DNA from: Cylindrospermum sp. FACHB-282 | GTDB lineage: Bacteria; Cyanobacteriota; Cyanobacteriia; Cyanobacteriales; Nostocaceae | Direction of reading: 5' to 3' | Assembly (NCBI RefSeq): GCF_014697195.1 | Contig: NZ_JACJRJ010000051.1 | Coordinates: forward strand, 1 to 41,819 | DNA: 41,819 nucleotides | Part shown: positions 2-41,818 of the stretch, one piece after another | Layout: each line of letters starts with the position of its first letter | How positions within the stretch are numbered: position 1 is the first letter of the stretch | The notes under the pieces: model-generated | Database searches by the model: none | Told to the model about the DNA's origin: nothing | Seen by the model: the letters and a program-made list of their open reading frames with translations, nothing else | Position numbers and translations under genes: made by a program

Positions 2-475
2 CATCAAATTGGTGTAGTGGTATTTGGGTGGAATCAGGGACAAAGACAAGAAGCGCAGTTAGGTAGAACAACGCAATCATTTGTGCAGATACCAACCGCC
101 AAACTCAAAAAACAAGTTAAACAGTTATGCGAGTACCACGGCATCAAATTTGTAGAAACTGAAGAATCCTATACCAGTAAAACTAGTTTTTTAGATGGTG
201 ATTTTCTACCTACTTTCGGCGCAAAACCTGAAGGGTGGAAACCAAGTGGAAAACGAGTAAAACGCGGTATATATCGCACTGGTACAGGAATTCTAATCAA
301 CGCTGATTTAAATGGTGCAGCGAATATACTTCGCAAAGTAGAGACACAATTAGGACTCGTCCTAGTCAAGGTCTGTAGGCAAGTTTTGACCCTTGCTACC
401 AGATTTCGTATCTGGGAAACCAAAACTAAAAAGCGAAGTGGTACGGGTTCAGCCTACCACGTAGCATCAGTTTAG
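2..475 (+). CDS. tnpB: TnpB (IS200/IS605 family) C-terminal part, copy A, cut by the window edge
   Basis: Only the last 157 codons are present; the frame is open to the first base, so the gene starts outside the window. TnpB is an RNA-guided RuvC-like nuclease encoded by IS200/IS605-type elements. The segment shows the family's C-terminal pattern: a Glu in the EESYTSKTS motif, a GKRVKRG stretch and the last RuvC motif NADLNGAANIL with its Asp. No CxxC zinc-finger pair is visible, as in one common TnpB subgroup. A second, inverted copy at 41345-41818 aligns along its whole length with a handful of substitutions (for example KKQVK against KKRVK, and KRGIYRT against NRGMFRT). Both are cut at the same base. 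The stop is directly followed by the hairpin right end. Whether the full gene is intact cannot be seen. Confidence 0.88.
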   Translation, partial: HQIGVVVFGWNQGQRQEAQLGRTTQSFVQIPTAKLKKQVKQLCEYHGIKFVETEESYTSKTSFLDGDFLPTFGAKPEGWKPSGKRVKRGIYRTGTGILINADLNGAANILRKVETQLGLVLVKVCRQVLTLATRFRIWETKTKKRSGTGSAYHVASV

Positions 476-28916: not shown

Positions 28917-29074
28917 CTCTCTGTTTCGACTCCGCTCAACACAAGTAGATTTGGCAGTCTATCAACCCAGTCTTCTACTATCTGCGTGACTGTTTTATCT
29001 TTCATTACAGCATAAGAGCGAAGTTTGTTCAATCTACGTTCAGACATCCTGACATTTAATCTAGTAGTTTTCAT
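28871..29074 (-). CDS. Small ribbon-helix-helix (CopG/Arc-like) DNA-binding protein
   Basis: 67 residues, ATG start. The opening strand [21 protein letters not shown] and the helix after [16 protein letters not shown] fit a ribbon-helix-helix repressor or antitoxin fold. It is divergent from tnpB, with only 43 bases between the two starts, so it could repress both. I recall small RHH genes next to tnpB in many cyanobacterial elements. The C-terminal third ([18 protein letters not shown]) is encoded by one arm of the long palindrome and is probably element-end sequence. No toxin gene is adjacent. A regulatory role is inferred from fold and position. Confidence 0.72.
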
Positions 29075-29117
29075 ATTTGTCTACCCGTTGTTGTCACTTT
29101 ATTGTATTATAGTCTTG

Positions 29118-30419
29118 ATGGTTGAGGATAAACAAGTGAGGACAGCGTACCAATACAAGCTACGACCAACAGCAAAACAAGCCATAGAGATAGACAGATG
29201 GCTGGCTATGCTATGCGCTCAGTACAACTATCTGTTGGCTGATAGATTTGATTGGTATGAGCGTAATCGTTCATCGATTAATGCCTGTCCTCTTGTCTGC
29301 CATATACCAGAATTGCGGGATAACCCAGACTATTATTCACAAAAGAAAACGCTACCGCATCTGAAAAAAACTCATCCTTGGTACGGTGAAATTTACTCGC
29401 AGGTTCTACAGGACATAGTTAAACGAGTGAAGGTGACATTTGACCGTTTTTTAAAAGGTGATAGCAATGGCAAACGTAGTGGTAAGCCGAGATTTAAGCC
29501 CCGTGACCGTTATCGCACATTTACATATCCACAGATGAAAGATGGGTGTTTGCCCTCCGGGTTCGGCAGTTCCCCATCGCCGGAAACCGCCAAGACGGGG
29601 ACTGCCTCACAAGGTAATTTAATAACTTTACCAATGTTCGGCATAGTTAAAGTTATCTTGCATCGCCCAATACCTGACGGATTTAAAATTAAAACCGCAT
29701 CAGTAACAAAAAAAGCTGATGGTTATTATTTGACCTTGAGTCTTGAAGATACGACAGTCCCGAATATTAAGCCTGATTTCAATGCGGATTTAATCACGGG
29801 TATCGACCTTGGCTTAAAGGAATTTTTGACAACTGCCAATGGTGATGTTGTCCCAATCCCTCAGCATTACCGTAAATCTCAAAAGCGATTGCGCGTCATT
29901 CAAAAGCGTGTTTCGCGTCGTAAAAAAGGCAGTAATCGGCGCAAAAAAGCTATCAAGCAAGTTGCCAAACAACACAAAAAAGTAGCTGATAAGCGCAAAG
30001 ACTTTCACTTTAAAACTGCCAATAATCTCCTGAAAAAATATGACGTTGTAGTTCACGAAGATTTAAACGTCAAAGGTCTTTCTAGTTCGATGCTAGCAAG
30101 ATCTGTGCATGATGCTGGATGGTCAAGCTTCCTGTCAATTCTAACAACCAAAGCCGAAAATGCTGGGTTATTGGTAATCGCAGTGAATCCATCAGGTACG
30201 TCACAATATTGTTCTAATTGTGGTGTGAAAGTTCCTAAAAAACTGCATGAACGCTGGCACGATTGCCCTAATTGTGGGTGCAGTCTTGACCGTGATCATA
30301 ATGCAGCGTTGAATATAAAAAATAGAGCGGTAGGGCATTCCGTTCTTAAAGCCAAGAGCCTCCTAAGCAATAGCCGGATTGTCTTGGAAGCCTACACTTA
30401 CTGCGAAGCAGAAGTGTAG
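29118..30419 (+). CDS. tnpB: TnpB RNA-guided nuclease of an IS200/IS605-type element, apparently intact
   Basis: 433 residues from the ATG at 29118; the frame upstream is non-coding. The N-terminal helix-turn-helix part starts [18 protein letters not shown]. RuvC motifs are present in order: [15 protein letters not shown] (Asp), [11 protein letters not shown] (Glu), a zinc finger CSNCG...CPNCG, then [11 protein letters not shown] (Asp). All three acidic catalytic residues are kept. No TnpA transposase is nearby, so mobility would need one in trans. About 20-26 extra residues after QMKDGC (Pro/Ser/Gly/Thr-rich) come from an inserted palindrome. The stop codon lies inside the right-end hairpin. 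The product is unlike the end copies, which lack the CxxC pairs. Likely function: guide-directed DNA cleavage that helps retain the element. Confidence 0.93.
29551..29612. repeat. Small GC-rich palindrome inserted in frame in tnpB
   Basis: Arms ggcagttcccc (29565-29575) and ggggactgcc (29597-29606) form a hairpin with one bulge inside a GC-rich block. The block codes for a low-complexity peptide ([16 protein letters not shown]). Flanking codons rejoin normal TnpB sequence. It resembles the small dispersed palindromes of Nostoc genomes. Confidence 0.6.
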
Positions 30420-38875: not shown

Positions 38876-39475
38876 CTACACTCTCGACTGTAATTGTTCC
38901 AGAAAATTTCGCATTAACTGCTTTCCCGAAGATGTCAGGACACTCTCTGGATGAAACTGGACGCCCTGAATGTGAGGATAGTTCCGGTGTCGGACTCCCA
39001 TAATGGTGCCATCATCAACCCAAGCGGTGATTTCCAATACTTCGGGGCAAGTCTCGCGGTCAATCACCAGACTATGATATCTGGTTGCAGTCATAGGATT
39101 TTCTAATCCTTGAAAAACCCCAACCCCACTGTGAGACACCAGAGAAGTTTTGCCATGCATCAACTCTGGAGCAGAGACAATTTTACCACCGAACACTTGA
39201 CCAATACTTTGATGACCTAAACAAACACCCAAAATTGGCAATTCTTGTCCTAACCTGGCAATTAAATCTAGAGAAATTCCCGCATCTTCCGGGCGACCAG
39301 GCCCTGGAGAAATGACTACCACATCAGGATTTAATGCCCGAATCTCATCTACGGTAATCTTATCGTTACGAAAAACCCTAAGATCAGATGCGACTGGAAA
39401 CTCTGCGGCTAGTTCTCCCAAATACTGCACTAAATTATATGTAAAGCTGTCGTAATTATCGATGACTATAATCAT
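38876..39475 (-). CDS. trpG: Anthranilate/aminodeoxychorismate synthase glutamine amidotransferase subunit
   Basis: 199 residues from the ATG at 39475, preferred to the TTG at 39493 because [12 protein letters not shown] is the normal N-terminus and an AGG precedes it. Class I glutamine amidotransferase: [11 protein letters not shown] forms the oxyanion region, the catalytic cysteine is Cys85 in LGVCLGHQ, and His175/Glu177 are in VQFHPES. It supplies ammonia to TrpE (tryptophan) or PabB (folate); many cyanobacteria use one subunit for both. The partner gene is not in the window. Upstream is a structured intergenic region, downstream the MBL-like gene. Confidence 0.95.
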
Positions 39476-39604
39476 AAAAAACCTAATTTTCAATACTTTT
39501 CTGATGATAATTTAGCTATTTTTCTTAACTTTCTAGTCATTATCCGAGGAATATAATCACAATTTTCACCAGACTTACTAATAGCTATAAACTTGGATTT
39601 TTAC

Positions 39605-39840
39605 CCATACCTAAAGGCAGGGGATTGTTTTCCTCTGAGGGGCTAACGAATGGAAGCAGACACTGCGAAGTTAGGCTTGAAGACAAAACCTCAAACCAAT
39701 TGGCGAAGCCATAGCGCTGACTACAATAGTGTCCATGTATCGCAGATACTTTCTACGTATTTTATGGAGTCAACTCTATCTAAACGGCGATTAAAATCAC
39801 CTATGTCCTGATCCCCATGTCTAAAGCCCTTTTTTCTACA
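39605..39840 (+). ncRNA. Candidate stand-alone structured RNA, HEARO/IscB omega-RNA-like
   Basis: The gap between dgkA and trpG holds about 235 bases unlike its surroundings. Stems seen: cagggga (39618-39624) with ttcctctg's tcctctg (39631-39637); gacact (39659-39664) with agtgtc (39728-39733), closing a 60-base domain that contains ggctt/aagcc (39674-39678, 39706-39710) or the local ggcgaagcc hairpin; and aaagcc (39823-39828) with ggcttt (39841-39846) around six T. The string taacgaatggaagcagacact resembles, from memory, the HEARO RNA consensus that accompanies IscB/IsrB nucleases. No IscB/IsrB ORF follows, so it would be an orphan or decayed copy. Ends are approximate. Confidence 0.5.
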
Positions 39841-39868
39841 GGCTTTGATTTTCAGTCACAAACCGTAT

Positions 39869-40324
39869 CTAGAAAGCAGAAATAATTAACGCTACTAGAG
39901 GGGGGAGTAAGAGAATAGCAGCTACCAGCAACGCTACCAAAGCAGAAACAAGTACGGCACCAGCAGCACAGTCTTTGGCAATTTTTGCCAAATCGTGGTA
40001 AGTTTGCTTAACCGTTAAGTCCACAAGGGACTCGATAGCAGTATTCAGTAACTCCAAAGCTAAAACTAAACCACTAGTTATACCAATTACGGCTATTTCC
40101 ACTGCTTGCAGTTGCAAAAAAACGCTTAAGCCAATGGCCAAAGTACAGACGCTTACGTGGATGCGAAAGTTGCGTTGAGTCTGAAAACTATAGCTAATTC
40201 CAGCCCAGGCATACTTAAAACTAACGAATAAATTAGAGGCAACTTGCCAGGAAAGCTCCCGTTCATTGGTCACAAGCGTTGATAAGCTCTTTGACATTGG
40301 TGGAGGCGAAACTTTTGGGGACAT
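39869..40324 (-). CDS. dgkA: Diacylglycerol/undecaprenol kinase family membrane protein
   Basis: 151 residues. DgkA-type enzymes phosphorylate diacylglycerol, or in many bacteria undecaprenol, at the membrane. The N-terminal ~30 residues are polar; then SFKYAWAGISYSFQTQRNFRIH carries the family's amphipathic entry, followed by three hydrophobic helices. The catalytic signature ELLNTAIESLVDL (Glu91 and Glu98 among others) and AKDCAAGAVL (Lys117, Asp118) are intact. ATG start. It lies 160 bases after ybeY on the same strand, an arrangement I recall in other bacteria, and upstream of the structured RNA region. Lipid preference is not readable. Confidence 0.93.
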   Translation of the reverse strand: MSPKVSPPPMSKSLSTLVTNERELSWQVASNLFVSFKYAWAGISYSFQTQRNFRIHVSVCTLAIGLSVFLQLQAVEIAVIGITSGLVLALELLNTAIESLVDLTVKQTYHDLAKIAKDCAAGAVLVSALVALLVAAILLLPPLVALIISAF

Positions 40325-41344: not shown

Positions 41345-41818
41345 CTAAACTGATGCTACGTCGTAGGCTGAAGCCGTACCACTTCGCTTTTTAGTTTTGG
41401 TTTCCCAGATACGAAATCTGGTAGCAAGGGTCAAAACTTGCCTACAGACCTTGACTAGGACGAGTCCTAATTGTGTCTCTACTTTGCGAAGTATATTCGC
41501 TGCACCATTTAAATCAGCGTTAATAAATAGTCCTTTTCCTGTGCGGAACATACCGCGGTTTACTCGTTTTCCACTTGGTTTCCACCCTTCAGGTTTTGCG
41601 CCGAAAGTAGGTAGAAAATCACCATCTAGAAAACTAGTTTTACTGGTATAGGATTCTTCGGCCTCTACAAATTTGATGCCGTGGTACTCGCATAACTGTT
41701 TAACTCGTTTTTTGAGTTTGGCGGTTGGTATCTGCACAAATGATTGCGTTGTTCTACCTAACTGCGCTTCTTGTCTTTGTCCCTGATTCCACCCAAATAC
41801 CACTACACCAATTTGATG
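41345..41818 (-). CDS. tnpB: TnpB (IS200/IS605 family) C-terminal part, copy B, cut by the window edge
   Basis: Last 157 codons of a tnpB gene whose start lies beyond the window. Same motifs as copy A: EESYTSKTS with the RuvC Glu, GKRVNRG, and the final NADLNGAANIL with Asp; no CxxC pairs. It differs from copy A at scattered positions (KKRVK, EAEES, RGMFRTGKGLF, SGTASAYD), so the two are older duplicates and not the same locus read twice. The cut is at the same base as in copy A, which suggests an assembly break where the copies become identical. Confidence 0.88.
   Translation of the reverse strand, partial: HQIGVVVFGWNQGQRQEAQLGRTTQSFVQIPTAKLKKRVKQLCEYHGIKFVEAEESYTSKTSFLDGDFLPTFGAKPEGWKPSGKRVNRGMFRTGKGLFINADLNGAANILRKVETQLGLVLVKVCRQVLTLATRFRIWETKTKKRSGTASAYDVASV

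Follow-up and report, generated by a model that had tools for sequence, protein, structure and literature searches.

The block at positions 39605-39840 of the window is very probably the remains of an IS605-family transposon that carried tnpA and tnpB, was inserted between dgkA and trpG, was internally deleted, and is now a decaying, non-functional relic. The window is the whole stretch of DNA analysed, 41,819 nucleotides from Cylindrospermum sp. FACHB-282. In it, dgkA ends at 39869 and the ATG of trpG is at 39475, both on the minus strand, leaving a gap of about 393 nt. The earlier note rightly described this gap as long, and the extra length is explained as an old transposon remnant. Most likely, then, the block is a commonplace decayed IS605-type remnant rather than a HEARO guide RNA standing on its own.

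Search for a HEARO RNA

HEARO (RF02033), the RNA of IscB/IsrB, is a guide RNA of a mobile-element nuclease, and to this extent the block resembles it. The earlier note went further, and proposed a stand-alone HEARO (the omega RNA of IscB/IsrB), read from the plus strand and acting in trans, on the basis of nested stems, a HEARO-like 21-mer, and the lack of an IscB/IsrB gene downstream. The 21-mer is found in the block, and the last point, which concerns a usual but not an obligatory feature of HEARO, is also correct: a genome search shows a single RRXRR-domain (IscB-type) protein, which is on contig C88, with none in the window. The presence of this protein favours the proposal, as does the fact that five of the six genomic HEAROs over the cut-off have no RRXRR gene nearby.

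The covariance models, however, give no support. A cmscan at gathering thresholds, run over the entire window, found one tRNA, elsewhere in the window, and nothing else. In the region 39480-39900 an Rfam cmscan at E ≤ 10 listed no HEARO, and its three matches, all to unrelated families, were sub-threshold. Both HEARO and the other Rfam families were thus rejected as identities for the block. As a positive control, the HEARO model was run on the genome of the window, and located eight places (six over the cut-off and two weaker), none of which is in the window. The 21-mer was compared with seven HEARO-model regions (the six over the cut-off and one weak), using the best ungapped match and 500 shuffles. 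In six of the seven regions its match was equalled by 388-499 of the 500 shuffles, and in the remaining one (L003) by 56; a resemblance to HEARO is not borne out. The nested stems fare no better, since the plus strand of 39600-39850 folds with an MFE z of -0.79 and 45 of 200 shuffles are as good. It is the minus strand of the block that is structured (z -2.58, 2 of 200 shuffles as good), and the element described below runs in that direction too. Fold and homology both led us to reject a plus-strand RNA.

The findings that the earlier note named as counting against its reading include the lack of a covariance-model match (coupled there with the lack of a transcript) and a block that is a protein-gene remnant. 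The search that it suggested gave no match at the block, and the block contains the 3′ end of tnpB. A tnpB element on the minus strand accounts for the block, and we give a stand-alone HEARO here practically no chance of being correct. The block differs from HEARO in having no covariance-model match, in lying on the opposite strand, and in belonging to a different nuclease family. It also differs in position: PMC9755519 places HEARO 5′ of its nuclease gene, whereas the region found here is at the 3′ end of tnpB. A guide-RNA-like block on one strand can therefore be a tnpB/reRNA remnant, from another family of RNA-guided nucleases, on the opposite strand.

Anatomy of the element

The block was searched at the DNA level against 40 genomes, including its own, of which seven had a match at E ≤ 0.001; no plasmid copy was matched. 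At locus L019 the match falls on the 3′ end of a gene for a 394-aa protein, identified as TnpB. On the minus strand, the order is a left end (LE), tnpB 3′ sequence, and a right-end (RE)/reRNA region extending to about 39594. The features are as follows.

39784-39828, minus strand: left end of an IS605-family element, with the near-palindrome GGTGATTTTAATCGCC; 38 of 45 columns are identical to the LE of genome G051 (L085:1022-1065)
39782-39783, minus strand: internal deletion junction between LE and tnpB 3′ sequence, with about 1.46 kb missing relative to L085:1066-2528
39671-39781, minus strand: tnpB 3′ remnant, approximately 37 codons' worth, with an open frame at 39766-39671 ending in IRRKYLRYMDTIVVSAMASPIGLRFCLQA and a stop
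39594-39771, minus strand: decayed reRNA (TnpB omega RNA) region, consisting of tnpB 3′ sequence and RE; 71.3 bits with model R1
39605-39629, minus strand: RE terminal hairpin region AATCCCCTGCCTTTAGGTATGGG, the best preserved part; in genome G002 the R1 match is confined to it (L018, 18.9 bits, model positions 140-171)

The peptide encoded by the tnpB remnant agrees with positions 354-378 of the L019 TnpB at 17 of 25 residues (E 3e-9 in a single comparison), and with the L078 TnpB at 16 of 25. Both of these TnpB proteins match PF07282 and PF01385 over the cut-off, while the 31-aa remnant itself matched no Pfam model.

The LE stretch of about 45 nt has similar counterparts elsewhere in the family, and weaker ones in the genome of the window. 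We considered whether it was simply an unrelated repeat. This reading was dropped, because in G051 the 45-nt repeat adjoins a tnpA-like frame and tnpB. The G051 element (L085) has LE at 1022-1065, followed by a divergent tnpA-like frame, tnpB, and the tnpB 3′ match from 2529, with both matches on the same strand. The divergent frame in L085 and L106 looks like Y1 TnpA, as judged by eye. In the block, LE is joined to tnpB 3′ sequence at 39782-39783, and so the roughly 1.46 kb that is missing corresponds to the tnpA-like frame together with almost the whole of tnpB; a tnpA (Y1 transposase) gene is absent from the block. The ends are like those of other copies and are in the same order and on the same strand, and tnpB coding sequence is present as a 3′ remnant only, as would be expected for an IS605-family relic.

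The closest known system is the IS605-type element L085 of G051, to which the tnpB genes L078 of Nostoc sp. FACHB-973 and L077 of Desmonostoc vinosum are related. The block shares with it the LE, the tnpB 3′ sequence, the right-end reRNA region, and their order and strand. In contrast to L085, it lacks tnpA and nearly all of tnpB, and its structure and end motif are decayed.

A structural model of the reRNA region

TnpB reRNA is described in PMC8612924 as consisting of the tnpB 3′ end and the right end, with about 16 nt of flanking DNA as guide. A covariance model of this region, R1, was built from seven aligned tnpB 3′ ends from other genomes, with the relic left out. Four of the sequences come from full-length or nearly full-length tnpB matches (L019, L079, L084, and L085), and three from partial matches (L081 and L082, with the C-terminal half only, and L090, at a contig end). 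L087 was excluded, being on the same contig as L081, as was L078, which we took to be on the same contig as L084. RNAalifold applied to the seven sequences gives 45 pairs, 11 of which have changes on both sides.

R1 matches the minus strand of the window at 39771-39594 with 71.3 bits (E 1.1e-18 over 72,400 bases); the scores of 139-189 for the seven training sequences follow from the way in which the model was built. In the 6.1-Mb genome of the window, the relic (E 9.2e-17) is the only strong match reported among the 150 of 352 candidates that were scored. Within the same 150, three further places score 11.6-17 bits, two of them being the end hairpin only. The relic in G001, a genome of the same genus, scores 50.7 bits, and in G002 the model matches only the end hairpin.

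The block is thus like a TnpB reRNA, as set out in PMC8612924, in combining a tnpB 3′ end with a right end, next to DNA that would act as guide. It differs in that 11 of the 45 modelled pairs are non-standard or gapped, the 3′ end motif that should be conserved beside the guide has changed, and no close TnpB was found. The earlier note offered a stand-alone guide RNA or a relic. The second is right, in that the relic derives from a mobile element of the OMEGA type, one that bears a guide RNA; the RNA in question is a TnpB reRNA region rather than an IscB HEARO RNA. Its function has probably been lost, with structure and end motif decayed and no close TnpB found.

Distribution among relatives

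The dgkA survey covered 40 genomes with dgkA, including that of the window. Thirty gave loci, 28 of which have trpG in the locus; in loci where the local match to dgkA stopped early, the gap lengths obtained also count some of its codons. R1 matches in three of the 30 loci, namely the genome of the window (G000), G001, and G002, and there is no R1 match in the other 27. The extra sequence is present in the window's genome and in G001, where the same relic is at the same site, and a stub of RE is kept in G002. We infer that this stub is what remains of the same insertion.

The fusion of LE to tnpB 3′ sequence recurs in G001, in the same order. At the outer LE of G001 (L048) there is different sequence instead, which has a GCCTGCGGCAGGC palindrome, and so the two orthologous relics decay differently. 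In genome G011, L021:1501-1537 has a 36-column match (89%) to window 39580-39615, covering the RE end and flank; R1 finds nothing there. At the LE-like loci L012, L020, and L022, R1 matches the end hairpin only (9.8-14 bits), and it has no match at L010, L011, L014, and L024.

These results bear on whether the element arrived already short, as a MITE-like miniature non-autonomous element moved by TnpA in trans, which would also be a dead relic today. Both ends are kept with the inside missing, and the LE/tnpB fusion was already there in the ancestor of G000 and G001, which favours this idea. Against it, no second copy with both parts was found in the genome of the window (27 of 27 candidates scored, and 150 of 352 in the R1 scan), and among 217 genomes of the family, with up to three candidates scored in each, the LE and tnpB 3′ parts were matched together only in the G001 ortholog. 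We consider a MITE-like origin rather unlikely. A single copy with a shared junction fits both shrinkage in place and arrival in a short form, of which deletion in place is the simpler.

Decay of the relic

Of the 45 modelled pairs, the references have 37-44 as standard pairs, the window has 34 (with three gapped), and the G001 ortholog has 29. The seven references have 81 invariant columns, of which 19 differ in the window and 16 in G001; 12 of these differ in both, nine of them with the same letter. The changes common to both imply that part of the damage predates their split. The invariance of the RE end among the references is in part built in, because the cutting pattern required most of the RE end, and right ends in the same genome that have a similar end are not independent, because they were found with the same model.

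The ungapped identity between the window and G001 is 79.7% for the reRNA span and 76.9% for LE, compared to 93.1% for the trpG coding sequence, 91.7% for the dgkA coding sequence, 86.5% on the dgkA side, 86.7% for the trpG leader, and 88.8% for the next intergenic gap. The relic (reRNA span) and LE are thus the least conserved of the seven stretches compared. The 5′ stem and the 3′ end motif are worn in both species, and GGGGAGACAGTCAA corresponds to GGGTAAAAATCCAA. Some observations do argue against decay: the remnant frame is still open in both G000 and G001, the 34 pairs and the RE hairpin persist, and the fold of the minus strand is better than shuffles.

Search for a TnpB partner

With the L019 TnpB as query, 18 matches were found in the genome of the window, the best being about 31% identical and one, of 67 aa, 37%; all 40 candidates were scored, and no close TnpB was among them. 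A scan of genome contigs with the same query confirmed six of 24 candidate stretches. Among 217 genomes of the family, with up to eight candidates scored in each, a match at E ≤ 1e-60 occurs in four, all from outside this genus. PF01385 matches 33 places in the window's genome at E ≤ 0.001, and therefore more distant TnpBs do exist there.

A shortened element could in principle still yield a minus-strand reRNA that is used in trans by another TnpB-type nuclease of the genome, with its guide fixed at the trpG leader. The retained pairs and RE hairpin would fit such an orphan reRNA, and the PF01385 places could supply a nuclease. However, the reRNA span is, with LE, the fastest-diverging stretch measured, the two parts of it that are eroded are so in both species, most of it is lost in G002, and the nearest TnpBs of the genome are far from the L019 protein. 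We therefore regard a retained, working orphan reRNA as very unlikely, and a present supply of reRNA to a different TnpB as equally improbable.

The window has a TnpB-like frame of its own at 29025-30419 on the plus strand (464 aa), with a PF01385 match at 29757-30086. At its two ends, 2-475 (plus strand) and 41345-41818 (minus strand), there are near-identical TnpB-like C-terminal frames, the minus one matching PF07282 and the plus one recognized by eye, and both ends of the contig seem to fall within copies of a single repeated element. Behind the first of these frames is an RE-like hairpin (474-505, R1 9.8 bits).

Proposed origin

The block is best read as a dead relic, since its gene is lost and its RNA worn; most likely it predates the split of the three compared species of the genus. 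An IS605-family transposon with tnpA and tnpB would have inserted between dgkA and trpG in the ancestor of these species, with tnpB on the minus strand like both genes. The intact element would have made reRNA from the minus strand, and on the scheme given in PMC8612924 its guide of about 16 nt would have come from the DNA beside RE, below 39594 towards trpG. An internal deletion would then have taken out tnpA and nearly all of tnpB, to leave LE, the tnpB 3′ end, and RE, which now appear to be decaying as a non-functional relic. A full element was probably once present at this very site, although it may have arrived already shortened, and the relic presumably does nothing today. Decayed IS605 and IS607 copies are put aside as a class in a paper on TnpB-containing elements (PMC9956272).

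HEAROs elsewhere in the genome

The genome's single RRXRR (IscB-type) match lies immediately downstream of the HEARO at C88:2527-2755, which is over the cut-off. The other five over the cut-off have no IscB-type gene nearby, and are L001 (C37), L003 (C38), L004 (C44), L005 (C42), and L006 (C1). Nuclease-free HEAROs inserted before ATGA have been described. The five of this genome are better candidates for stand-alone HEAROs than the block 39605-39840, and more suitable for finding out if RNAs of this kind act in trans. L001, L003, L004, and L005 have approximately 470-540 nt in common, in pieces that are 80-97% identical, each running to TTATGAA. In L003, L004, and L005, the next long frame starts at the ATG within TTATGAA. 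The same holds for L006, which lacks the common body of 470-540 nt.
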